Shown: one piece after another, positions 3,421 through 53,359 of the stretch
How positions within the stretch are numbered: the stretch's first letter is position 1
Layout of the letters: every line of letters begins with the position of its first letter
Source of the DNA: Polytrichum commune
Taxonomy: Eukaryota > Streptophyta > Polytrichopsida > Polytrichales > Polytrichaceae
Reading direction: 5' to 3'
DNA length: 64,000 nt
Assembly: GCA_950295325.1 (NCBI GenBank)
Contig: OX485804.1
Span: 63,828,533-63,892,532, forward strand
Notes under the pieces: generated by a model
The model's input: the letters and a program-made list of their open reading frames with translations, nothing else
Database searches by the model: none
Told to the model about the DNA's origin: nothing
Translations under genes and position numbers: made by a program

Positions 3421-4140
3421 CCCCTGACCTCATCCATACAGCCAAGCGCTAAAGGGCATCTGGAGTCTGTGAGTCAACCCTATATATATATATACTTACT
3501 TCAAGGCGTACTTCCATCTACTTTTAAGTGCTCAGAGCCTGAACCGCCCCAAACTCAAAGTACATATTCTCAGCTTCCACAATCCCCCATAGAAAGTGAG
3601 GTGAGTACTTCTACTCTCCTTTAATTTCGTAAATCGATCGGGAAAGATTTTTCCTTCTCTCTTCGCCAACCCAACACTTGTCTGCATAGCTCACAGGTAG
3701 AGTGTACTCTGAGGAACTGGCCCAGAGATCTCTAACTAGTTACTTCCCTTTCTTCCTGAGTCAGCTCAGGCCAGGGCCAGCGAGCCTTCTTGCGATGAGA
3801 ATTTTTCTGCTTTTGGTGGAGAAATAATTGTGGACATGTGGAGATGTGGACACAGATGTATACACATGGAATTGTAGGGCTAACTTGAGCAGCGTACTCA
3901 TTCTTGATCTCTGATGAAGAAATCATGTGACTCTTTGGATCCTGGTCTGCTTAACACTGTCATAAACGCTACATGTGGGTTATGGATTATAGGTACATAC
4001 TCGATATCGCTCATCCAAGTGGAGGGCACTTGATCCAACAACTCCCACATGCTAACTTTCTGTACTTACACACAGAAAACATTCCATCCATAACCTCTAG
4101 GCCAGTTTACGTCCACGAGTAGACCGGTTATGTATTTGAT

Positions 4141-4270
4141 AATGGCCATTGGGTAGACCCAAAGCAAGCGTTAGGTGGTCGTGAGCAGGGTCCACCGTGC
4201 AATGGCCATTGGGTGGACCCAACCAAGCGTTAGGTGGTCGTGAGCCAGGTCCACCGTGCAATGGCCACTA
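4141..4270 (+). repeat. 60-bp tandem repeat, two full units plus a start of a third
   Basis: Two successive 60-base units beginning AATGGCCATTGGGTRGACCC and ending GGTCCACCGTGC differ at only a few positions. A third unit begins at 4261 with ATGGCCA and then diverges. The flanking 4280-4450 stretch repeats shorter GGTCCACC / TTGACC phrases. Confidence 0.85.
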
Positions 4271-4449
4271 TCTAATGTTGTTCCATAGCAAAAAGGTCAT
4301 TTATTTTATCCACATCATTTAAGACTTTGTCGACAGTGTGGTGGAGTACCCTGTGACAATATTGACCGTAAGCTAGGTCCACCCTATATTGACCATTGTT
4401 TAATGTAAATTCCGTTGGGAAAAGCTTATGGTCGACAATAATTCGACCA

Positions 4450-6320
4450 TATGACTATAATATTTGAGTGATCAAGTGGATATTGTGCTTCAATATGTGA
4501 TTCACCCCAAGAAACTTTGGGTGGAGGTCATGATCTCGTCTTGATGGTAATTAAGTAGTCCATATAAATTACTAAGCGCAAGAGTCTTGCTCCTTACTAA
4601 CGTGCTATCACACGGCATGAATGTCCAATCAATCGTAGTTCTCATCTTCTGTAAAAGCAATCACATCCTTTAGTGTTGTCACTTGTTGTACGTCATGCAC
4701 AGGTACCGATGCATAATATTATATATATACATAAACATAAATATGTGTATATTGGTAGAGCATATACTAGTAGAGATTCATCTAGAACAATGTGATTGAC
4801 CAACATTAAAGTTAATGTTTTGATGGTTACTTTGCCTCGTTTGTTTTCAACGTATAGGTACGCTCTTGAAAGATGAATCTACGAAAATGTACCGTGTGGT
4901 GGTGGGTGTGACCCCTCCCTCAGCTGGGGATTAAAGGGGAGATATTTGAACTCAGCTGTGGGACCCTAAACCCCTCTTGTTCTTGTTGATGTAAGTTCTC
5001 AAACTTTCTAGTTTCTGCAGTCTGATGGTAGTGGTACTCATCTCGTTGGACGTGCAATATCGGGTCATGTACATGGTTGATTAGTGGAAAAAACAAAACA
5101 CAAAAAATACATGGCCACAACAAAGCATGATGCTTCATTCGACTCATGCAGTACATGAGTACTCGCTAGATCATATATAACTGTGGATGCAACCAAGTGC
5201 GGTTTTAATTTGGAGCGTCAGAATATCTTAACCGCCCATCAAATCCCCACAGAGAGAGAGAGAGAGAGAGAGTTCCAATATGTAAAATGTTAAATTTATT
5301 ATGGACTACACTCACAGTTGTAAGTTTCATGCATCAAGTGTCATGTGAAGCGTCGGATCTTGGAGCAAATCAACTGATTGACATTGCCTATCTAGCAGCA
5401 GATCAGACTTACCCTTGGCAGTAATTACAGTAATTAACTCCAACTATGTAGTAGCTAGTGCTGTGGTTAAACTTAGAATCTGCTATCAGTTAGAATCTGC
5501 GAGGTAGAAATGATATTTAATTTCACTGTGATTCCAGAGTGACAGTATTGCTGCTGTATGTATAAGTAGTACGACATGATTTGCAGCTGCAGGATGTTTC
5601 GGAGCTCACACTAGTACTGAGCCTAACTGCAATTAAAGTGTTCCAGATTTCATCTGCTTGCGTAGAGGATTCAATTCACCAACTTGGTTGCAGATGCCGC
5701 GCGCAGTCAGGTTGCAGGACTACTTCTGGACGTATTGAATATGGGTAACATCAAGAAGAAGTTGAGTTAACGAGAGGTAGGTCGGTGACTGACTCATGAT
5801 CTGAACAAAGGCGTGAGTACAGATCATATTCAGCTGCAGGTGGTACTACTCTGACGAAGATAAGTTTATATATAAAAATCGATGAAGTGAGGGTTTGGGG
5901 TAGAATGCAAGTCTCATCAATATTATGAATGTATAATCCTGATCAGTGTGCACAAAGATCGTCATTACGAGGCCCCTGTAATTCCATGGCACAGCTCATA
6001 CCGCGGTTATATGGTCTCGAAGTTGATGTGGAGCCTGCGGCATCAGCCCAGGACTAGCTACCACTTTTAATTTGTTCCTGGCAGGGAGTTGACAGTCCGA
6101 GGCATTTCATGAATCTTTGGGACGAGACTCGACTACTCCAGAACAATATATACACTTATATGAGCAGATTGGTGGTTACCAAAGAGCTAGCGAGGGTTAA
6201 GTTTAATGCTTGACATCTGTACAGGCTAAAGGAGGAGAGAGAGGTTACGAGCCTTACAAATACAGCGGCAGGAATTGCAGATAGTGCCCAGATCAGACTT
6301 TTGTTTGGCCTTTGTTTGGT
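4450..6320. other. Gene-free upstream stretch
   Basis: No credible coding sequence or family repeat was found. It holds an (AG)n run at 5251-5272 and several short AT-rich tracts. The part nearest the GRDP gene (about 5600-6320) is non-repetitive and is the likely upstream regulatory region of that gene. Confidence 0.5.
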
Positions 6321-6442: not shown

Positions 6443-9400
6443 ATGGAGGCGTTAGATGATCCGAAGGCAGCTGCTGATGCCGCCAAGGTCTTGAAAAAAA
6501 ATTTCCAGGCGGAGGTGACGCTGCGAAAGGAAATTTTGTCATACCACGAAGAGGAGCTGAAAAGGGCTCAAACGATCCAGATTTCGGTCGACCTCGTGTT
6601 GGCGGCGAAGCGTCAGTTAGGGTTTCTGCGGACGATCGACAGCATCACGACCTTGCACCGAGGCCCGGCAGTGCCTCATGCCATTCAAAGGTTGGTTAGA
6701 TCTTCACCGCCCAAACCTTAACTGCTCAAGAATGATGTAACAACTTCGCTTTAGGCTGCAAAAATTAATTAGTAGCTAGTTTCTGACTGCAGCTGAAAAT
6801 CTTCAAATTAAGCTCTGAGGACAGGCCAGCTTCTCCAGAAAATCACTGAGGGGATTCTGGATGAATCAAGAAAAAACATTTCTTCTCTCCAAGCCTGCGG
6901 CGGTACACAAAATAAATTGATAACATTCGACTGCTCTTGATCTATCTAGCCTCCCGTAAACTACCTCCTGAGGACAGCAAACTTCTTGATGAGTAGTGTC
7001 AAAATTGTCAGAATCTCACATGACTGACGTCAGTGGTGATCGCCGATGTTCATATCCTCAGACACACATCTCGCAGCTTGATTAATCCATCAGCAGACGC
7101 AACATGGTTTGACTTTGAATGAAGCATGTGGAATCCGGAGTTTTTAATCGACGAGACCAAGCATATATAAGTCATTTCTTAAGCCGGTCGATTGTCCGGG
7201 ACTGTATCTAACATGGAACCATCAGAGTAAATTGAGTATTTAATCAATCTTGGGACGGTGAAACCTTCGGAGATGAATTGGCAGACAGGCTTGTACTTTG
7301 GTGTGCAAGCGCGCCATGCAATGATCTAGCATCTATTTGAGATCTGTATACATCTGACCGAACAAAAAAAATCCATATTTTAGATTTCTACTTGTACTCG
7401 ACGAGTAGATGAATTTTCTTACAGAATTTCGTGTACAAATTTTGTGTTGAGGATGATGATGATGAATTAAACGTGTCTCTCACATTCAACACTTTTCCAT
7501 AACTATCCCAGGTACAACAACTGCTGGATGCCAATAGCGGCGGAGGTTGCAGATCATCAGCTCGCCGATCACAGTAGCACTGCTTTGCTTCCTCCCCTGG
7601 ACGTTCAGTGGGTGTGGCATTGCCATTGTCTAAGCCCGGTGAGAAATGGCGCACAAAATTTTCCATTCCAGAGCTCCATCCCATGCATCGATCGGAAGCA
7701 CAGTCTGCAAATACTACGTAGCTGTGTACAGATAAAGGAAGGGTCTCGGAGGTAATATAACTGGATGCTGTACGTAGTAGGTGGGATTTTTGATAATATA
7801 ATTTGGTGATGACCTCAATTCATCTCCATTCTGACGAGATCCTCTTCATGTCTTACATCATCGTGATCGACATCAATTTTCTCCCTGGCAGATGGCGTAC
7901 AGGAAGTTCTGTGAATCCAAGTTCGGAAAGGTGATCAACTATCCCATCCTTCCTGACACGGAGAGTGAAGATAAAGCACGGAATGCATGCAAACGCATTT
8001 GGTGTGAACGATACAAGGATGAGCCTTTCGACATATTAGCGAACCTGGTTAGGGCTGATTCAAACCTCAACTCTGCAGCAGCAACAGAAGTTGATGATCC
8101 AGATCAGGTGTCCCCGGTAAAGGGGTTTTGGAAACAGGAGCTGGATGAGCTCGTCTCCATCATTGCGAGGCAGAGTTCTTTCTATTACCAGGTAAGTGAT
8201 CCATTAGGGCGCCAAACTCAAAACGATCCAGCAAACGCCCCGTGCAATATCCGGTGTAGCTCAGGACTTGTATCTGGAACGGTGTATTTAGAAGCAGAGA
8301 CACAATCGATCATAACATTCTTAAGGTTTGGAAGGATGCTTTTTTTCTTTTTCTTTTTTTTTCCTTCTATTCTAGGTTCAAGAATAATTTTTCAAGATGT
8401 TTATTCAACGTGCTGATTGATCAAATGCACGCATGAATGCCGAGGATAGTCAAGCTGTGGCAACTTCTCATGTGCAGACGCTATAGCTAATTAATGTCAT
8501 TTTTCGGGCATGGAGCCTTAATCTCTAATCTACCAACATTCATATAAACGACCAGTAAAAACACTTAGGTTGCAATCGGTGTATATCAGAACTGTATACC
8601 TAATCTGGAACAGTTATTTAGATGCAGCCAATACAGTTGATCATTGTGACATTTTAAAGCTTTGGAAGGGCGCCTTCTTTCTGTCCGAGAATAAAATTTC
8701 CAAGAATACTCAACGTGCTTGATTGCACGCATGAAGGCCGAGCATAGTCAAGAATAGTCTCATGTTTCGCCACCAATCTCACTGTTCGGACATGAAGCAT
8801 TCTCCTATCTACCAACATTCAATGGAAGAGGTGCGTCGGCCCTAAATGTAATCATTCTTAGGTCGTCCCATTGCCTATTAAGAATTATTCCATTTGCCCC
8901 GGAAGACTAGTACATAGGTCGGCTGCTCAAGAATGTTGTGATGAAATACATCGAACCATCCCAGAAATATACAACTAGGTCGTCTCGAAGAATTTCGAAC
9001 TTTCAAGCTGATGTTGATTGAGCAAGAAAATAAATGTGCTCCCAGGTGTCTCAGCCTTACATGTGGGAAGAAGCGTTCTTGCAAGCAGCGTTGGATCGAT
9101 ACAAGTGCTTCTTGCACATTGTTGGCAAGTCCAAGGGAGCCATCATGTGTGTGCCCACCTACGACATCGACCTTATATGGCACGCCCATCAGGTGACATT
9201 GATCACACATGGATCCCTGTCCCATGAAATATAATCGAACACTCATTAGCACTCTTATCTAACGTTGTAATTAATTCTCCCAGAATGTAATTTCACGTAC
9301 TGAGATAGAAGTAGGACATATATATAGATTGTTGTGAATTTCATTGTGATTTTGGGGGCTTTATGCAGGTGTCTCCAATTGCATATGCGAAAGATACGAT

Positions 9401-12400
9401 GACGCTGATGGGATCCGTGGTAGACCACGATGACAGCATGGAGAGAGGTCCGCACACCAAGCTTGGAGATGGGTTTGAGGACACAACTCGGCTATGGGAG
9501 AGCACTTTCGGCCAACCTTACGAAAGGGCGGGCTCCTTGTACCGAGGATCGAAGCCCGTGAATCTGCCTGCACCCCCGCACGATGACCACGACGGTGAAC
9601 AGATTGTGGAGTGGATCCCGGGAATTTTGTCCTCCGACTACCGTCTTTCCGATGTGAATGCCAAGTTTCCTTTGCTCGTTCCCAGGCGCATCGTGCAAGT
9701 GAGTGATCATGGTTCCCCTCACATTCGAACAGAAAATTCAAAGTGTTGTGATTTCCCCTCAAATTTGAACATGACATTCAATGCGTTGTGATGATTCCGC
9801 TCAAACTCATAAGGCTAGGATATCCATTGTGTTGTCATTTTCCCTCAATATCGAATTCCAGGAAGTTTATCGTGTTGTCATTTCCTCTCAAATTCGATCA
9901 GGAAATTCATGGTTTTGTTTCTCCTCACATTCGAACAGGAAAATAAAAGTGTTGTGATTTCCCTCAAATTCGAACATGAGATTTGTTGTGTCGTGGTGAT
10001 CAAACTCATTCGACCAGGATGTCCATTGTGTTGTCGTTTTCCCTCAATATCGATTTGCAGGAAGTTCATTGTGTTGTCATTTCCTCTCAAATGCGAGCAG
10101 GAGCTTCAATGTGTTTTGATTTCTTACAGCACGTTCTGGAAGAATATTCTTCACTGGAAATCTGTTGGAAGGAAGCTCCGTCACCTACGATTTCCAGTGC
10201 TGCTAACAGAGAATCGCCTAACCTGTCTCCTCTGTAATTGGTACTTGTCCATGGTTTCTGAAGTCTTCTGGAATTCTGATGTAACAATGACTGGGAATTA
10301 AATATGATGATCATGTGTAGGTATATGATGACCATACATCAAGAAGCATCGATATTCCAGGTTCCAGAGTAGTTTTTTCCAGAGTGTTATTCAGGAGTAG
10401 GTAATCTGATATAAAGGGAGTTGGTAATTCTGGCAGGTATGCATAATGATCAAAAGTGCGACCAATGTGGTCGCCGTAGCGAAGGAAAATCGTAAACTCT
10501 TTGTTCGCTTGCGAGCGCTGGAAGCTCACAAACTTCTCAAACTGGACACCCCGGTGGTGGCCTTCACCTCCGACCATCAATGGCAGAAGCTATGGCTCTT
10601 GCAATGCGAAGTGGCCACTGGCGGGGTGGTGCTGGAGCTGCGGTGCCGTGTGGCAGGATGTCTCGGGAACCGCACCAAGGTGATTGGATCGACAGTGCTC
10701 GCCTGGAACACTCTCCAAGAATCTCCCATGCTGTCGATCGACACACTCTTCACTCTGAAAGAGAAAGAAAAGGGAAGTAACCCTCTTCAGCTCCGACTTG
10801 GGGCGTCGATAACGCCTCCGGTGCAGGCGAGTTGTCTCCTCAAACGATTCTACCTATCCTGTTTCTCGCTGAATTTCAGTTCATCAATACCTTCGAAATT
10901 TTTAACTCAAAGGCCGCAAATTTTTCACTTCAAAGTACCGTGAGATAATGCAGTTCCATTCCACCATTGCATAAGGTTTAGAGCATTGAAGGTAGGATGG
11001 GAGGTCATTGATCCTAAAGTTCAATGACAACGATCTCTCCTACTCAAATTGATACAGCGAGAGGAACTTGAATTACATAGATTTGCTTAAACCTCTCCTT
11101 TGATTGAGGTGCCTGAAGTGGCTGCCGCTGAATTCCAAATCATCAACATCTCCTGAATCTGTTTGTCAGAGACCGCGCATTCATCACATCAAGGTTCAAG
11201 ATACCCTGCGAGAATGGAGTTTCACTGCATCATGATAGCATTAGGGTTAAATGCATTGGAAGGCTGGATCATTGTGAGGTCATTGATCCTAATACTTAGT
11301 GACGAGAATCTCTCCTACTCAATTTGAGATGTGAGGAAATTCTTGAATTACATAGGCTTGCTCTCCCCATGGTTTGCTCTAAATACTTACCTATTCTGTT
11401 CAGCAAAGACCAGGAGACTGTGCGAGGTTTTAATCGATTATCTGTACAAACAATGGTGGTTGGATTTCGTGCTGATGTTATGATGATGAAAATCTGAAGA
11501 GATGATTTGATGATGCCTTGAGGTTCATAATTTTTGATGATTTTTTTTGAATGTGTAGGGTCCGTACCTTCTTAAATCCGTGCCTGACCGAGTGACAGAT
11601 GACAATGGTGGAATGCTATCCAACCTGATTCTGCGTATGAACAGGTTCCAACCTCAGCGTGGGAGATGGATCACACGAACTGTGCTCAACCACATGGGCA
11701 GAGAATGCTTCGTGATTCGCGTCAGGTTGAATTCATGTGATCACCATCATCACAGTTATGACTTCTTCCAAGACAAATGTTGTGTAGTAGGAGGTGTAAG
11801 AATTTTCAGCTTTTGGATTTTAATTCGAATTTGATGTTGGTTTGTGCACACCAGGGTGGCGAAAGGAATCTGGAGGAAGAGTGGAGATAGACCAGAAGGT
11901 GTGGATTGGCACGAGCGTGTGATTGATGTATGTGAGGGTGGTTGGACATATGTGGCCGGTGCAACAGGTTATGCTCCGAGTAAGTTTCGATCTGTCTTCG
12001 AAATCCGAGCTGGCGTCCTTGAATCACATATCATCAATGATGTGTCGTCCCACATATAATTCTATCTTTCAATTGTTCTTGCAGGGCCGACGACCGTGGT
12101 CGTTTGATCGATGATGATCCTTTTCTAATTGTCGCTGCTGCTGCTGATTTGTTGACAGACAAAATTGTCGGAAGTGCAATTCCGTTTGCGGATGAGCTTG
12201 AGCATTACAAATTGAGCTGGCACCTGAGCAATGGCAGCACGCTGGTCATCTCCAGGCCCTTCCACGATGACCACGACTGGGAACAAAACCTTGAGTTCAC
12301 TCTCACTGGTTTCTCCACTAGCTTGGTAAGCTGGTGTCACGAGATTGCTTGAGACTTGCTTGAGAAATGGCTGATATCCACTCTAGGTTCCTCTGAAGTA

Positions 12401-15400
12401 CCCCAATTTAATCTAAACCAAATTTCGGAGATGTTTTACGTATACAGCGATCTCTGCTGTGTCGAATTTGTAAACTGGTTCGCTTGAGAATTGCTCGGGA
12501 AATGGCAGATTTCTGGGTTCCTCTGAAGTACCTCAAATTAATCTTAACCTAATTTCGCAGATGTTTTACATATGAAGTGAGTTCTGCTGTCTTGAATTTG
12601 TGAGCAGGTGTCAAGCAATTACTTCAGAATTGCCTGACAATCGCTTGACAATAGCAGGTTCCCGGGTTACTCTGAAGTCCCTTAACTTCAAACCTGAACC
12701 AAATTTAGAATCTAGACCTAATTTCGGAGATACTAACATATAAAATGAACTCTGCTGTCCTGAATTTGTAAGCTGATGTCAAGAGGTTGCTTGGGACTTG
12801 CTTGGGAAATGGCAGATTTCTCGATTCCTCTGAAGCACCTGAACTTCAAAGCTGATCCCAATGTAGAATCTAACCCTAGTTTCGGAGATGTTTACCAGTA
12901 CAGTGATCTCTGCTGTCTCCAATTCGTACGCTGGTGTCAAGAGATTCCTTGGAAATTGCTCGACAAATTAATTGCAGATGTTTACATGTACAATGATCTC
13001 TGCAATCTTGGATTTGTAAGGTGATGTCAAGTGGGTTGCTTGAGAATTGCCTGAGAATTGGCAGAATTCTCAATTCCTCTGAAGCACCTGAACTTCAGAC
13101 CTGATCCCAATGTAGAATTTAACCCTAGTTTCGGAGATGTTTACATGCACAGTGAATCTCTGCTGTCTCGAATTTGTAAGCTGGTGTCACGAGATTGCTT
13201 GAAAAATTGCTCGAGAATCAATTGCAGACGTTTACATGTACAATGATCTCTGCAATCTTCGATTTGTAAGGTGGTGTCAAAGTGGTTTGTTTGAGAATTT
13301 CTTGGGAAATGCCAGATTTCTTGGTTCCTCTGAAGCACCTGAACTTCAAACCTAATCCCAATGTAGAATCTAACCCTAGTTTCGGAGATGTTTTACATGT
13401 ACAGTGAATCTCTGCTGTCTTGGATTTTGTAATGTGGATAAGAATACAGAGGTCTTACGTGCATTGCAAGAGAGAATGTAGGTACTCTTGATCAATGGGA
13501 GAAGATTGGAATACGAGGTACACGATAGTACGCCTGAGGAGGAAGAGGGCTTCGTCACTCTCGTACGCTACAATGCCCAAACTCCACAAGGAAAAGCGAC
13601 CGCATTATTCAACTGGAAGGTTTCAGCTATGGAGATTCATCCCGAAGAGGATGTGGTCCTGGTCCTCCTCTTATGCACTGCCACCATGAGGTCTGTCGCC
13701 GACTTCGGAGGAAAACACCAAGGCAATGTGTTTGCTCGCCGTCGACACAAGGAGGTCCGACCAGGCCTCAAAGACTGGGGTTCTGTGGTCCTCGAACATG
13801 CCACCTCGCAATCCAACCTCGCAATGTGGTACCTCAACACCCCGCAATTCATCTACAATGCAGATGGCACCGACCGAATCCACAGCCACCCAGGCAAGCT
13901 CCGCCCAAAACTCAATTCCTCATCTTCATCCCCTCTCCTTAGCTGCTGCTGCCAACCTTCCTTCTACTCTCATCTGATCTTCCAGCCACTTTTGATGATG
14001 CAATCTTGAACCATGATTCCATTTCCCTGCTTCCGAATTCAGGCATGCGAATTTTGATTAGTATTTGTCAACCTGAAACATGTCAACCTAAAGGCTCGGT
14101 TACACTAGTACAAAGATGGTCGTGGTCGAGGACCTCCAATCAACTACAACTACAATTTTCGTCATTCACAACTGCGAATCCTTGTGGTTGTGGTCGGTGG
14201 CGGGGCAATGGGGTCGGTCTTTGAGATCGTAATCTATCATTGGTTTAGGTCTTGGGCTTGAAAGAAGATTAGAGCGATTATTATACTTGTTTGCTTAGGA
14301 TTCTAGTGTTAAAGTGGTTTCCTCCTGAACTTTCTCCTCATACCTTGGCCTTGAAGCTCTTTGGTGATGCCACATGAGCATGAACAACCACCCCAAGGGT
14401 GGTTGTGGGGGTGGTTAGTATTAACTATTCCTTTTCCATGGAAATAGAACTAAAGAAAGTACACCATGACCACGATCATGGCCACGACCACAACCACAAC
14501 CACAACCATCCCTAGTGTAAATGACCCTTAAAGATACAACATTGCATAAGTCTTATAGCCCACTTGCACATGACGAATGTCGGATGTTTCGAAATGTTAA
14601 GGACTCCAAAAGTTGGGGAGCCACCTTCTTGTGCACTTTACCGTCGGACAACCAAGAACATTGGAAGTCCGATTGCAGTGTTGTCACGGTCATCGAACGT
14701 TTTGAAATGTTGACAACTCTCAAAACACAGTAGGATGAAAGACTAAGTTACGAATCCCGGTTTGTGATTGGTGAGAACTTTATTATCCTTGTGTTTGAGT
14801 CATGACTTTCTTCCGGAATAGTTTACTTGAATGTTGGACATTTCAAAATGTTCGACATCTCCAATTCTTTTTGCACTCACACATACGGGCCTTCTTTTTG
14901 AAACATCGAATGTTCCAAAACATCTGATGTTTGACGTGTGCAAGCAGTGTATTAAGTTGACAGGTTTTGTCACTCTTGAATCCATAGCCTAGACTCGGCA
15001 AGTGACAACCATATCCCTAGTACGGATTTGGTGCCTGTCAAAATGTTCCAGTAGGCCTCCTTCATGTGAATTTGCCGTGTATGAGCATGTTTAGTTTTTG
15101 ATTCCATCGCGAATGGTTCTGAAATCATGGTTTCAAATTGAATATCAAGGTTAAGGCCTTGGCTTTTGAGTAGTCTGAGACAGGGCCTGCAAATACCAAC
15201 AATCCAGAACAACACATACTTAGGTTTAACATGTTTCATCATTCTTGCATCCATAGCCTAGACTAAAGCGACAACCATCACTCCAATAACGAATTGGTAC
15301 CTCAAAATGATCCAGCACCCCTCGTCCATGTAAATTTGTGGCCAAAAAGCACAATTAGTTTTCGATCCTTGAACGCTCAAATTTGACCGAATCGTAATAT

Positions 15401-17508: not shown

Positions 17509-19950
17509 TTACCGTCTCAGTTGCAAGTTAGGAGAAGCCATGGATGATTTCTCTTGTGAGTACACTGCAGGCCTACTAGGGTTTTGTATGGGTGTTTGAA
17601 ACCGCGGTAGAGTTTGTAATGGAAATCCAAAATACTCATCATCTGCATCATCTGAGTCAGATTCGGACTCAATATTGCGCTGGACCAGTGCTGATGAGTT
17701 GCTCTTGGAATGAACACCTAATTTCGCAAGATATTCATCAACGGCTTGATTGGCAAGCCTGTCTGCAAGCTCATTATATTCCCTAGGAATGTGCTCCAGC
17801 CGGAAACTCTTGAAGTGTTTCACCAGACTCGTCACCTTGCGCCAATGTGGTTTGAAGCTCTCATCCCTTACTTCCCAGTGACCCATCACCTGAATCACAG
17901 GAAATTTTTAAAATAATTATTTTGAATCGGTGTGACCACAGCTGTATATAATTTCTCTCATCTCACAAATTCAACTTCGATCCAACATAACCGATTCACC
18001 TCACCGGCCAGGTTTAGGCCGGAATAATCAGAGAATGATAATAGTCTGTGAATATCAACTCATGTGTATAGTACAGAAAATAGTCTTTACTGAATCGAAT
18101 GAACTCCAGGAAATCCTTGACAACCAACAATAACCCCTCCTAACAGCCATGCATCCCTCACCAGTCACGACCCTGTGTCCTATCACCTGAATCACACGAA
18201 AAGGAAATGCTCTGAACTGGTGTCACAGATATAGTTTCTCATTTCACAGATTCATTTTCAATCAAACAAAAAACTAATGATAATAGGCTGATCTCTCATG
18301 TACACAATTGCATACAGAAAATAAATTCACTCAATCAGATGAACTCCAAGGAAGTCTTCAGGACAAAAAATTAATGACTCCACCTAGCAACAAGGCATCC
18401 CTCACTTCTCAGTCACCCGTCACCTGAATCACACGAAAAGCAATAAATGCTCTATATTGATGTCATAGGTAAATTCCAACACAGATTCACCTTCAGTCAA
18501 ACGAAAAACTGTGATAACCCATCAGATTGAAGCCGGATTTAAGGGCGTGATAGTCTGAATATCTCTAGACTACTCATGATGTGCATATAGACGAATTCTT
18601 TACTGAATCAGATGAACTGCAAGATTGTTGAGTGCCTTAGGAAAGATGTGACAACCACCAAAAGTCATCCATGCATGCATCGAATTAGCATCAACACGAA
18701 CTCAATTGGCACCCCTGACCAGAGTGGAATGCTCTGCAATAGATGATTATATTGAAGGATGATGGTCTGAACTCTCTTGACTGCTTTTGTTAATATTACA
18801 GATTTGGCAGAGGTTTTTGATCCCCCCACCTTGTCTGCGAATATTTCTACTCATGATGTGTATACAGGAAAACTCTTTACTCAATCAGATCAATTGCAAG
18901 ATCGACTGCCTTAGGAAAAAGGTTATTTGACAACCACCACCAGCCATCCATGGATGCATCGACTTGGCATCATCACGGAATGTATTAATTGCCACATCCA
19001 AAAGTCTGAGCAGAGTGGAATGCTCTGCAAAGGATGATGCCAAACTCTTTCGAATGCTTAATTTGTTATCACAACAACTTTGGCAAAGTTTTCTGATCCT
19101 CCCACCTGGTCTGTGAATATCTCTCTACTCGTGATGTGCACACAGACAAATCCTTTTCTCAATTAGATGAACTGCAAGATTGACTACCTTAGGAAAGATT
19201 TGACAACCACCAACAGCCATGCATGGAATTTACAACACGGATTAAACAAATCATGGCACCCCTCCTGAGCGAAGTGGAATGCTCTGAAGGGCGACAGATA
19301 ATGTTCAAGGATGATGATGTCAAACTCCCTTAAATGTTGTTGATGTTAGCACAACAAATTTGGCAGTGTTTTCTGATCCACCCACCTGATCTGTGAATAG
19401 AATTCTCTATTCATAATGTGCACACAGAAATCCTTTACTCAATCAGATGGAATGCAATATTGACTACCTTAGGAAAAGGTTTGACAACCACCAACAGCTA
19501 TACATGCATCGAATTGGCACCAACACGGAATCAATTGGCACGCCTGAGCAAAGCGGAATGCACTGAAGGGCAGCAGATGATGTTCAAGGATGATGATGTC
19601 AACCCTCTCTTGAATGTTTTTGATGTTATCACAAATTTAGCGGTAGAGGAGAAGGCTAGTAGGTTGGTTTCGGATCCTCGCACCTGGTTATAGACCAGCA
19701 GCGAATCGCCCTTGGCGACAAGATGTTGCACATTTAGCCACTTAGCTTTCTCCAGGCCTGCGATCAACGCCAGATACTCGGCCACATTCTGCGACACATT
19801 GCTGTCCACACAGTTCTTGATGGTGGCCACCACATGTCCGTAACTATTTTTCAGCGCTGCTCCGATCCCTGGCGGCCCCGCGTTGTTCACACGCAATGCA
19901 CCATCGAAGTACAACACCCACGGCGTCCTCGCCCTCCCTCGTACACTCAT
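17509..19950 (-). CDS. RNase H-like protein (plant RVT_3/RNase HI-like), two exons, 215 residues
   Basis: Exon 1 is 19950-19684 and exon 2 is 17889-17509 (TAA stop at 17511-17509). The phase-0 intron starts GTGCGAGG after AACCAG and ends TGTGATTCAG. The fold is an RNase H domain: YFDGA (first catalytic Asp), NVAEYLALIAGLEKA (Glu), AKGDSLLVYNQ (second Asp), then HIPREYNELADRLANQAVDE carrying the final Asp. The four-acid active site is therefore intact. The family hydrolyses the RNA strand of RNA/DNA hybrids or acts on retroelement-like substrates; the cellular role is unknown. The last 60 or so residues are serine-rich and acidic (ESESDSDDADDEYFG) with no known domain. ATG at 19950 is chosen over the upstream TTG because it starts just before the fold. 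No clear transit peptide is seen. Confidence 0.85.
17890..19683 (-). repeat. RNase H intron: tandem array carrying copies of its own splice junctions
   Basis: The whole 1794-bp intron consists of about six or seven diverged units of 230-300 bases. Read on the - strand, decoy 5' sites of the form CAGRYCAG/GTGGGNGGATCA lie at about 19385, 19105 and 18829, against the real one at 19683, each followed by the same downstream intron phrase (CTGAAGGGC, GGAATGC, GACATCATCATCC). Decoy 3' sites GTGTGATTCAG/GTGA lie at 18187/18186 and 18424/18423, and each is followed by a copy of the first 30 or so bases of exon 2 (ACTGAGAAGTGAGGGATG versus ACTGGGAAGTAAGGGATG). Confidence 0.88.
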
Positions 19951-19967
19951 CGGGAGAAACAACAACA

Positions 19968-19998
<31 letters not shown>

Positions 19999-23159: not shown

Positions 23160-23850
23160 GCAGCTCACTTGGGCGCAAAATTTTGCAGCAGGAGGATGGT
23201 GATTACCTATATATATAGAGAGAGAAAGTGACAGAAGTTAAACCAACACTAATATATAAGTAGCTGCTAATCATGGTCCGGAAATTGGCCTGGCTTCTCA
23301 TTGTTGATGTCAGGTTTTTGAGAAACTAAACTTTCATGATCAGCACAGTTCCCCAGTAAAGAGGTCATTTTTAATGTGTGTGCATGTGATAGTTTTGGAA
23401 AAATGTTGTGGCAGCTCACTTGGGCGCAAAAGTTTGCAGCAGGATAGAGATTACCTATATATGTATTGTGAAAGACGATAAACTGACACCATTTTAATAA
23501 GTAGGTGCTGATTAAGATCCAGAAATTGGCCCTGCTTCTCATTGTTAATGTCAGGTTTTTGAGAAACTAAACTTTCATGATCCAGCACTTTTTCCCAGTA
23601 TATAAAGAGGTAATTCTCGATGTGTGTGCACTTGATCATTTTGGAAAAAATCTGCAGCCGGATGACGGTGATTACCCATATATCGTGACAGAAGATAATT
23701 GTCACTGATTAAGTAGCTGCTAATGACCCAGAAATTTGGGTGTCTCGTTCTTGTCAAGATTTCAAGACACTTTCATGATCAGCACTGTTTCCCAGTAAAT
23801 AGGTTCTTGATGTGTGTGCATTCGGTAATTCTGGAAAACTCCTGCTGCTT
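23160..23850 (+). repeat. Three-copy tandem repeat, periods about 251 and 230 bp
   Basis: Units begin GCAGCTCACTTGGGCGCAAA (23160, 23411) or a shortened CTGCAGCCGGATGACGGTGA (about 23650). All continue with GATTACCYATATAT, GACAGAAG, AAGTAGCTGCTAAT, AGAAATTGG, GTCAGGTTTTTGAGAAACTA, TTTCATGATCAGCAC, CCCAGTA and GATGTGTGTGCA. The style (200-300 bp units, moderate divergence) is the same as the intron arrays of the two genes, but no flanking exons were identified. Confidence 0.85.
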
Positions 23851-45149: not shown

Positions 45150-46147
45150 GAGCCACTTCACACACCAGACTGAGGGCCCGTGACCATTGTACTTCAAGCA
45201 CTCTCGTTGGTGGACAAGGGAGAGCCGGTCCAAGTTCGCTTCACACTTAGCTTGAGGGACCAACGGAGTAAGGGTCACTTCACACACAAGACTTGAGAGC
45301 CTGTGACCATTACACTTCAACCACTCTCATTGGTGGAAAAGGCGGAGCTGGTCTAAGTTCACTTCACACTACGCTTGAGGGACCAATGGAGTATGTGAAT
45401 GCAAGATGGATGTAAAGTCTACAGGGATTCCTACATGGCATCGAATGGATCATGTTTCATGGTCACTTGGACTATTTTCAAAGACCACTTCTTGGAGGTA
45501 GGTTTAATATAAAATCGGGAGACCGTGGTACTTCAAACGCTCACACCCGTTGATTTATTCTGTTTTATCATGTGTGAGGACCCGCATGAATTGAAATTCG
45601 TTGAAATAGCATTTGGTGAGGGCCCAGTCACATATGACTTCACACTACATTTGAGGGTCCGTGACCACACTACATGATTTTGGAGGTGTCTTGGGACAAC
45701 CTTTACACACACTTTCTTTTGGGCTCTCACACTTTCATGGTCATGGCTTTTGGCTTTGTGTGTGAAGTGGCCCTAAGTGAATCCAAGGTGCATAGAAAAG
45801 TCTACATGAATTCCTACATGACATCAAATGGATCATGTTTCATGGTCACTTGGATTATTTTCCAAAAACCACCTCTTGGAGGTAGGCTTCACACAAAATC
45901 TAGAGACCATGGCACTCCGAAACCTCACAACCATTGATTCGTTATATTTCATCATGTGTGAAGACCCCACATGAACAGAAAGCATTAAAATAACATTTAG
46001 TTCATATATGGCTTCACACTACACTTGAGGGCCCGTGACTACACTACTTGATTTTGGAAGTGTCTCGGGACGGCCTTTGGACACTTCTTTGGGCTCTCAC
46101 AATTTCATGGTCACGCATCTTGGCTCGTGTGTGAAGTGGTCCTTAGT
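45150..46147. mobile_element. Family B cluster: one long element plus a fused partial copy
   Basis: The first unit runs from GAGCCACTTCACACACCAG (45150) to TGTGTGAAGTGGCCCTAAG (45777). A duplicated left end (GGGTCACTTCACACACAAG) lies near 45272. A second body copy (45788 on, matching 45405 on: GTCTACA.GAATTCCTACATG, ATGGATCATGTTTCATGGTC) ends TGTGTGAAGTGGTCCTTAG at 46147. Frames of 65-87 residues here are repeat-derived. Confidence 0.75.
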
Positions 46148-48399: not shown

Positions 48400-49445
48400 T
48401 CTTTAGTAGTAGTTTTTTTTACTCTTTTTTCGAGTTCAATTCAGCTCCCGAATTGGCAAAAGAGATCCCGTTGAGGGTATTTTGGAGTGGCACGTGCGTA
48501 GCACTGTCACTTACCATGTTTTGAGGCGTATGTGGTAGGTTACATTGATGATAAACAACTTCAGCAGAAGTGTCAGCTCTGGAGACTCGACGTTCAAGTG
48601 CGCTTGCGAATATCTTGGCATGAGTATGTTCAATAGTGGTATGAGGTGCATGCCTATGTTAGACACTGGTCTACAAGTTGACTAAAGTGTACACAAATGA
48701 TACTTGCCATTAGTATGTTCAAGAATATCTCCCTCTTGCATGTTAAATCTGTAAACACATGACACTTGTCATTAGTATGCTCAAAAATATCCTCCCCTTG
48801 CATACTAAAACGCAAGACTATCATCTAAAATATCCCAATGTGCTACTTCAAATGTCACAATGTAGATATTTTTTCCACTTTAAGAAGTTACTAATGATGA
48901 CGAATGGAATCATAACGACCATTAGCGGAGGTGACACTTTGAGACCTCTAGACATCTAGTTTAGCCCCTTCACAAATAGTGTACGTGGCACTAAATACCA
49001 TGAACAATGTAGTGTGGCATGGTAATGAATATGATTGTTTGGCAAGGAAGCGATTCTTCTCTCCTTGAAATAGAGGGTTTATTGGTTGTCGCTTAGTTTC
49101 GTGGATCATTTAGGTCTCCAAATGCACGATCGGACTATTATGATGTATCATCCACTTTGAGTCGGGCACCCACTAGTCTTACCTAGTGGAAGGTGAAAGC
49201 TTGGTCAATTATGTCATCTTGAATAAATATCCTTTTTTGAGTTGATTCTACTCCCGAATCGGCATCGGAGATCCAAATTTCATCAGGCATTGCTTACTTG
49301 TGATGATGTCAATTGCTTGACAAAGAAATGGGTCCTTTTCTTCAAGAAAGAGGGGTCCGTTGGTAGTCACTAGTCTCATGGATCGTGCAGCCCTTCCAAT
49401 GCACGGACGGACTACTATGTGTCTTCCTCTTTGAGTTGGGTACCT
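48400..49445 (+). repeat. Scattered duplicated phrases
   Basis: GAGTT.ATT.AGCTCCCGAAT and GAGTTGATTCTACTCCCGAAT occur at 48430 and 49238. A block around CTCATGGATCGTGCAG / TTTCGTGGATCATTTAGG occurs at 49080-49150 and 49360-49445. This suggests old tandem copies of about 280 bp. No gene is recognised. Confidence 0.4.
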
Positions 49446-51900: not shown

Positions 51901-52615
51901 CTCGGGGGGTGCACCTTTCATTAAAACCTAGAATCACATGCGTTCACTGCATACTCTAAAAACCCCCCTATATACAAGTTATTTTTTGTGAAATGAAGTA
52001 ATACACATACAATTGCAACAATAAATATACAAGTGACAATATGTATACACAAAAAAAACATCCATTCATATATAGTCATTAACATAAGTATACAAATATA
52101 CTTTTGAACAATAATCAACCCCTATAATATGTATAACAAAGTATCCTAGCTTTCATCAGCAAAGTCGTTGAAAACTTTTTCATCTCCTGGATGTAACTCA
52201 GAAACATTTGATTCACCAATATATGTCATTGTAGCCAATGCAATTATTGTCTCTAAGTCTACCATCAAATGATCAGTAAGATCATATGTCCACTTGTTGT
52301 TAGCCCTTTTTTGATACCAACATAAACCAATCTCCACGTTTGATGGACGGTCCATCAAGTCAATTGGACCCCTATACTCCACCCAACGATTACCAAACGA
52401 TTTCATCCAATATAAAAACTTATGATATGTAGTATAGTAACAGTACCATACAAGTACAATTATTGTATACTTTTTAAAAGCCTTCCATATATGTACGTAA
52501 CTATAAATTATAACATGTATACCATATGTATATGTAATACGGCAAGGTCCATATCAATACCCCTCTTGTGCACTCACGTATACTCGTACATGTTTAGTAC
52601 AGTGCACCCCCCGAG
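51901..52615. mobile_element. 715-bp inverted-repeat element with 8-bp target duplication
   Basis: The ends CTCGGGGGGTGCAC and GTGCACCCCCCGAG are perfect 14-base inverted repeats, flanked by TGTGGCTG at 51893-51900 and 52616-52623. Across the insertion the 200-bp array unit is cleanly interrupted. An 8-bp duplication is typical of hAT-type elements (a 9-bp reading, Mutator-type, is possible if one end base is moved). The interior is AT-rich with one 86-residue frame. Confidence 0.85.
52146..52406 (-). CDS. Unrecognised 86-residue frame inside the 715-bp element
   Basis: ATG to TAG on the - strand. The translation is of mixed composition (WVEYRGPIDLMDRPSNVEIG, then KWTYDLTDHLMVDLETIIAL, acidic end) and stands out from the AT-rich flanks. 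I see no transposase motif. It may be captured host sequence or a remnant of the element's own gene. Confidence 0.3.
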   Translation of the reverse strand: MKSFGNRWVEYRGPIDLMDRPSNVEIGLCWYQKRANNKWTYDLTDHLMVDLETIIALATMTYIGESNVSELHPGDEKVFNDFADES

Positions 52616-53007
52616 TGTGGCTGTGATTCGGTTTGTTTTTTTTGTGTTCTCCAACTTCTACCGATTAGATCTACACAACAACACTCATGTTGCACTAGCA
52701 CGTCTAATGTAACTCATCGAGTTGTTGTAACCCTCCTCCTTCGCTTGCTCACAAGAGCGGAAGTATAGATTGGAAGGGGACGAGGACAAAGAGTTGGTCC
52801 CGATCATTAAGGTGTGTGGATGTTATTCGGGTTGTTTTTTTTTGTGTTCTCCAACTTTTATTGATTAGATCTATACAACAAAACTTGTGTTGCATTAGCA
52901 CATCTAATGCAACCCATCTAGTTGTTGTAACCCTCTTCCTTCACTTACTCACAAGAACAGAAGTGTAAATTTGAAGGGAACGAGGACAAAGAGTTGGTCC
53001 CAATCAT

Positions 53008-53359
53008 TAAGGTGTGTGGATGTTATTTGGGTTGTTTTTTGTGTACTCCAACTCCTACTGACTAGATTTACACAACAAAACTCGTGTTGCATTAGCACAT
53101 CTATGATAAAGCATCAACATATATTGAATCGAAAGTTGGAACTCCCTTGATTTTGTTGTGGTTATTGTAAGTGCATGTTTATTGCAATGCTTTTTTGCTG
53201 AATGGGTTGGAATAGTTAACAAAACGTGAAGACACGGTCCAATCTCTCTTTAAACATCTCTCTTTATGGTGTTTGTTCTTTGATGCTTACCTAACCACAT
53301 ATCAATTAAATATAGGGGTCCCATTGAGAAAAATAACCAAATAACACATGCATACCTTA
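53008..53359. mobile_element. Inverted-repeat family C copy (about 350 bp)
   Basis: The ends TTAAGGTGTGTGGATGTTAT and ATAACACATGCATACCTTA are inverted. TTGTGGTTATTGTAAGTGCA and TTTGTTCTTTGATGCTTACC match the other copies. Its left end is also part of each unit of the preceding 200-bp array, implying that the array arose by amplifying one end of a C element. Confidence 0.75.

Follow-up and report, generated by a model that had tools for sequence, protein, structure and literature searches.

The predicted intron of an RNase H gene in Polytrichum commune consists for the most part of two interlocked tandem arrays, one holding four copies of its donor side and the other three copies of its acceptor side, and it carries decoy copies of its own splice junctions. 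It is a plant example of the mirage structure known from lancelet genes, with larger units, copies that are older by their divergence, and both ends of the intron involved. The structure recurs in a paralogue at the same position and, on the donor side, in a neighbouring gene within the window, as we call the 64,000-nucleotide stretch of DNA analyzed. Very probably, an old spliceosomal intron whose position is common to five genes was enlarged by two local series of tandem duplication, with the decoys carried along. What is new here is this shared position in five genes, an apparently separate 3' mirage in one paralogue (L032) and the donor-side case in the neighbouring glycine-rich domain protein (GRDP) gene.

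The exons on either side of the intron, on the minus strand, join to encode a 215-residue protein that matches Pfam RVT_3 (1.8e-24) and also RNase_H; solved RNases HI align to the joined protein and continue unbroken over the exon junction. This homology, together with four paralogues whose intron occupies the same position, points to 17890-19683 as an intron, and the coordinates given for it in the first-pass annotation were correct. An (ACG)n microsatellite (19962-19998) lies directly upstream of the ATG, in open frame with it. Rfam gave nothing at gathering level over the whole window and nothing at E<=1 over 17850-19720, and four of the five other open frames of the window that were scanned had no Pfam match. 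The features are collected in Table 1.

Table 1. Predicted features of the RNase H and GRDP genes, in window coordinates.
Feature	Position	Strand	Length and content
RNase H gene exon 1	19684..19950	-	ATG at 19950; ends ..LLVYNQ (CAG)
RNase H gene exon 2	17509..17889	-	starts GTGATGGGTCAC (VMGHW..); ends with the stop codon
RNase H intron (predicted)	17890..19683	-	1,794 bp; 1,518 bp tandem-derived by BLAST criterion
Donor-side unit 1	19386..19683	-	298 bp; begins at the predicted donor in use, CAG|GTGCGAGG, U1 duplex -6.8
Donor-side unit 2	19106..19385	-	280 bp; decoy donor CAG|GTGGGTGG, U1 duplex -12.5
Donor-side unit 3	18830..19105	-	276 bp; decoy donor CAG|GTGGGAGG, U1 duplex -10.3
406-bp segment	18424..18829	-	decoy donor AAG|GTGGGGGG, U1 duplex -9.3, opens donor-side copy 4; then core and acceptor-side copy 1, which terminates in decoy acceptor TGATTCAG
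237-bp segment	18187..18423	-	exon-2-like start (24/30), core, second acceptor-side copy, decoy acceptor at end
297-bp segment	17890..18186	-	exon-2-like start (21/30), core, third acceptor-side copy, predicted acceptor in use at end
GRDP intron 9	12326..13481	+	array 12323-13436 includes the donor; GTRAGN donor copies repeated
Tandem arrays in three more GRDP introns	9710-10124, 10867-11362, 8272-8752	+	37-62% of intron

In a self-comparison of the RNase H intron, the dominant offsets were 273-282 and 235-244 bp with their multiples; the number of matching 30-bp windows was 1,040, whereas 50 dinucleotide shuffles averaged 1.3 and reached at most 15. The periodic diagonal at 230-300 bp on which the first-pass annotation had staked its reading is therefore present. 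A repeat finder gave a concordant picture, and Tandem Repeats Finder reported two 280-bp copies at 19064-19634. Identity is 74-79% among the four donor-side copies and 62-67% among the three on the acceptor side, and a core of about 100 bp occurs in both arrays; two acceptor-side cores were tested, and for neither of them did any of 2,000 shuffles match as well. A description of the donor and acceptor sides as one single homologous array was also tried and rejected: in profile alignment, 7 of 150 permutations were as good. The same profile match extended into the shared core, and with the core removed its local score was reached in 91 and its global score in 236 of 1,000 shuffles.

The decoy 5' sites at 19385, 19105 and 18829 read CAG, CAG and AAG|GTGGG, respectively, and each is followed by the downstream context of the real donor, as had been proposed and as the identity of the donor-side copies bears out. 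The decoy 3' sites at 18423 and 18186 have the form GTGTGATTCAG|GTGA and run on into exon-2-like sequence; the earlier suggestion that about 30 bases of the start of exon 2 follow each of them is supported by identities of 24/30 and 21/30, which were equalled by 0 and 2 of 5,000 shuffles. At the 5' decoys, no copy of exon 1 was found beyond CAG (2,999, 3,987 and 3,817 of 5,000 shuffles were equal), so the 5' array touches the exon boundary without copying exon 1. The proposal that both ends had been duplicated inward together with flanking sequence thus stands for the 3' end, where exon 2 was copied, and falls for the flank at the 5' end. Tandem repeats therefore lie at the gene's own exon-intron boundary on both sides, and exon sequence is part of the unit on the 3' side and not on the 5' side; for the mirage class, one side suffices.

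The four paralogues, all in the same genome, have their introns after the same Q codon, with lengths of 138, 991, 919 and 1,693 bp, so that introns at this position range from 138 to 1,794 bp over the five genes; the CAG|GT donors of the paralogues were placed by hand. The joined paralogue proteins match RVT_3 across the junction (E 2.7e-14 to 7e-22). The exon-2 match alone is weak in two of them (E 0.09 for L032/L037 and 0.38 for L031/L039), and the pairing of the L032/L037 exons relies on their position, an open frame and the match of the joined protein. L035 holds a further exon-1-like match. Since the intron occupies the same codon position in all four paralogues, in one of them at only 138 bp, it would predate the arrays.

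The longest of the paralogue introns, the 1,693-bp L032/L037 intron, seems to be a separate 3' mirage of its own, with five decoy acceptors and a sequence unrelated to that of the RNase H intron; BLAST of the RNase H intron against the four paralogue introns, L032 included, found no similarity. The L032 array extends 22 nt into exon 2 (BLAST, E 2.7e-33), and five of six tested AGGT sites (534, 884, 1215, 1366 and 1543) match the 40 nt upstream of the real acceptor, with 0 of 3,000 shuffles as good in each case. The start of exon 2 is also copied at 1215 (5 of 3,000 shuffles) and 1366 (0 of 3,000); a copy of it was not significant at 534 (248 of 3,000), 884 (2,438) or 1543 (1,913), and the sixth site, at 120, showed no match to the acceptor on either side (307 and 2,361 of 3,000). 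More AGGT sites occur in this intron at 319 and 406. With this separate case, junction-spanning growth seems to have occurred at this position on at least two occasions.

The simplest ancestral layout would be an old intron of about 400 bp, composed of donor side, core and acceptor side, and the 406-bp segment appears to be the nearest to it. Two overlapping series of tandem duplication, probably through unequal exchange or replication slippage, would then have enlarged the RNase H intron. Array 1 repeats the unit from CAG|donor side to core and reaches the donor exactly, while array 2 repeats core, acceptor side, acceptor and the start of exon 2; the overlaps at the joins, read by eye, are short, at about 2 bp (AC) in the 5' array and 4 bp (GATG) in the 3' array. 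The outermost donor and acceptor presumably remain in use as the only copies with an intact exon next to them, and the copied sites would have been carried along to their present place inside the intron. As every copied site is AG|GT and any complete removal would yield the same mRNA, the duplications could have been near neutral. Enlargement by unequal exchange or slippage that takes splice signals with it, as first suggested, fits the two core-sharing arrays, the shared intron position and the L032 case, although the choice of mechanism is an inference.

The decoys are most likely passengers. A passive account must, however, invoke exon context, since the three 5' decoys surpass the donor in use: their U1 duplexes (-12.5, -10.3 and -9.3) are the best three among the 123 GTs of the intron, where the donor in use, at -6.8, is joint eleventh. 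It is possible, if rather doubtful, that the decoys are instead used for stepwise removal, either recursively at AG|GT or by an inner splice followed by an outer one, so that a weak outer donor would be tolerated. All five decoys are indeed intronic AG|GT sites with donor strength, the feature looked for in recursive or dual-specific sites; the 3' decoys score -8.1 and -8.2 as donors and are richer in pyrimidines (0.70 and 0.75) than the acceptor in use (0.60), and human UBC, according to the available text, uses dual-specific AG|GT sites that lie within tandem repeats (PMC10809524). Each segment has GT at its start and AG at its end, so that complete removal in one step or stepwise would leave an identical mRNA. 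Conservation of the decoy motifs does not, however, exceed that of the remaining unit, and there is no sign of selection on the decoy donors, whose motif has 10 of 13 invariant columns, a figure equalled by 27% of 104 unit windows. The 5' decoys would also make poor acceptors, with a pyrimidine share of 0.35-0.45 and another AG 5 nt upstream (five of the nine GRDP acceptors have a share of <=0.55), and the accessible part of the lancelet report describes mirages without effect on regular splicing (PMC3087553). Stepwise splicing at the decoys is a candidate process. The wider idea, that introns here repeatedly grow via tandem duplication through their own junctions, that tolerance of AG|GT permits this growth and that the inner copies do part of the splicing, is similarly speculative.

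Much less probable is that the segments serve as alternative mini-exons or are included in a regulated manner. A donor-like GTGAGG does lie 25 nt past the decoy acceptor at 18186 (U1 duplex -8.6 at 18161), but all six segments between AG|GT sites contain an in-frame stop, which makes whole-segment inclusion unlikely to be useful, and of the 64 combinations of retained segments just one, that in which all segments are removed, stays in frame up to the genuine C-terminus of the RNase H protein. Segment inclusion could still trigger mRNA decay. We consider it very improbable that the repeats are a mobile element, a satellite or an introner family that imported splice sites. Tandem arrays are common in this genome, but the DNA of the RNase H intron matches its own locus only in the 407.8-Mb assembly (a search that skips very common words, so that its counts are lower bounds), and it is therefore not seen as a dispersed repeat with similar copies elsewhere; it also lacks BLAST similarity to the four paralogue introns, and its 3' copies hold the RNase H gene's own exon-2 start. 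A 2007 PNAS paper reportedly dealt with human introns from tandem arrays. The least credible reading is the Rogers model, in which tandem duplication of an AGGT segment within an exon would have created the intron anew, since, for all that CAG|GTG stands at both intron ends and a potato intron is described in the available text as gained via duplication across an intron-exon boundary (PMC4974935), the four paralogues with an intron at the same codon position, the shortest of 138 bp, speak against an ancestor without it, and the similarity between donor and acceptor sides is not significant (summed local score, 91 of 1,000 shuffles).

The first-pass annotation knew of no described class of such introns, which was wrong: lancelet mirages are a known class, and the potato RdRp gene offers a plant relative. 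Mirages lie at either boundary of introns in lancelet genes, and in the accessible parts of the reports splicing is said to be undisturbed (PMC3087553; PMC3902484). They share with the RNase H intron tandem repeats that span a boundary, 5' or 3', with AG/GT inside the repeat. The present case differs in coming from a plant and in involving both ends of one intron, as well as in segment size (237-406 bp, against 150-160 bp in lancelet globin, 10-72 bp in Adh3 and 60 and 108 bp in PGBD5, as far as those accounts give them) and in copy identity (62-79%, against 81-100% in the part of the record seen for BflGb6), so that its copies appear old. The available accounts of the class also include haplotype copy-number variation alongside the undisturbed splicing, whereas the RNase H intron is known from the sequence of one assembly.

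In the potato RdRp gene, also from a plant, the excerpted report has a single tandem duplication across an intron-exon boundary making a new, used intron together with an exon (PMC4974935), whereas the RNase H gene holds several copies within one old intron. In human segmental duplications, internal tandem repeats located at exon-intron boundaries can likewise alter gene structure and yield novel introns, according to the accessible text (PMC2812944); those repeats are variable, recent and supported by transcripts, in contrast to the RNase H copies, which are presumably old and silent as far as known. Human UBC and VCX3A resemble the RNase H intron in their repeated AG|GT, each a potential donor or acceptor, and the part of the report available presents the use of these dual-specific sites as supported by reads and the UBC repeats as coding (PMC10809524), unlike the non-coding RNase H repeats. 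Stepwise removal of the kind outlined for recursive splicing and stwintrons would need sites like the RNase H decoys, which, like the repeats around them, are read here from genomic DNA. At the level of titles and the beginnings of abstracts, with subscription papers mostly outside the search, no plant intron was found in which both junctions had been copied inward, and the portion consulted of a moss paper (PMC8361020) had nothing on copied junctions. The case makes it possible to ask, in measurable terms, how far introns grow by local tandem duplication and whether the copied junctions stay silent or serve as stepping stones; in addition, decoy donors stronger than the real one can mislead gene predictors.

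The neighbouring plus-strand gene is GRDP (Pfam GRDP_C), for which we made a model with nine introns by hand. The array of its intron 9 starts 3 nt before the donor and is a case of the donor side only. Here the order of strengths is the reverse of that in the RNase H intron: the real donor has a U1 duplex of -8.0, against -4.3 to -4.8 for five TTT|GTRAGN copies. The array at 9710-10124 starts 11 nt past the donor of its intron. Intron 8 (window 11980-12084), which is short, breaks the frame, and the fault may lie in its border, in the model or in the gene; intron 6 may have a GC donor (CAG|GCGAGT, 10821-10826) a few bases later, judged by eye from the paralogue in L043. No self-similarity was found in the introns of the GRDP paralogues in L042 and L043.

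Local tandem duplications are abundant in this genome, and more so in the introns that were examined than outside them. Tandem-derived sequence makes up 3,821 of 6,764 bases (56%) in the ten modelled introns of the window, against 31 of 3,243 (1%) in its exons and 3,582 of 53,993 in the remainder, which may still contain genes; at a comparable setting, a genome sample of 20 evenly spaced 10-kb stretches of one contig gave 14,674 of 200,000 bases (about 7%). Circular shifts gave p of 0.0008-0.001 for all ten introns over four settings and 0.0008-0.0095 for the GRDP introns alone, a test that is partly after the fact because GRDP was modelled once its arrays had been seen. In a survey of one contig and a few, partly chosen genes, arrays were present in 7 of the 12 examined introns longer than 600 bp, for which 6 of 11 is the fairer count because L019 was chosen for its high repeat content; the five array-free introns were three of 821, 991 and 919 bp plus the two from the GRDP paralogues in L042 and L043. 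All four introns longer than 1.1 kb (GRDP intron 9, the RNase H intron, L032 and L019, the last chosen for its repeats) are 63-96% tandem, and none of five introns shorter than 260 bp has an array. The L019 intron (3521-5736, minus strand) has 2,216 bp, of which 1,773 are tandem-derived; its flanking exons join in frame, and the gene has a helicase-like open frame, named by eye. Additional diverged tandem arrays lie outside both gene models, at window positions 23160-23838, 45154-46147, 49034-49444 and 52615-53103.
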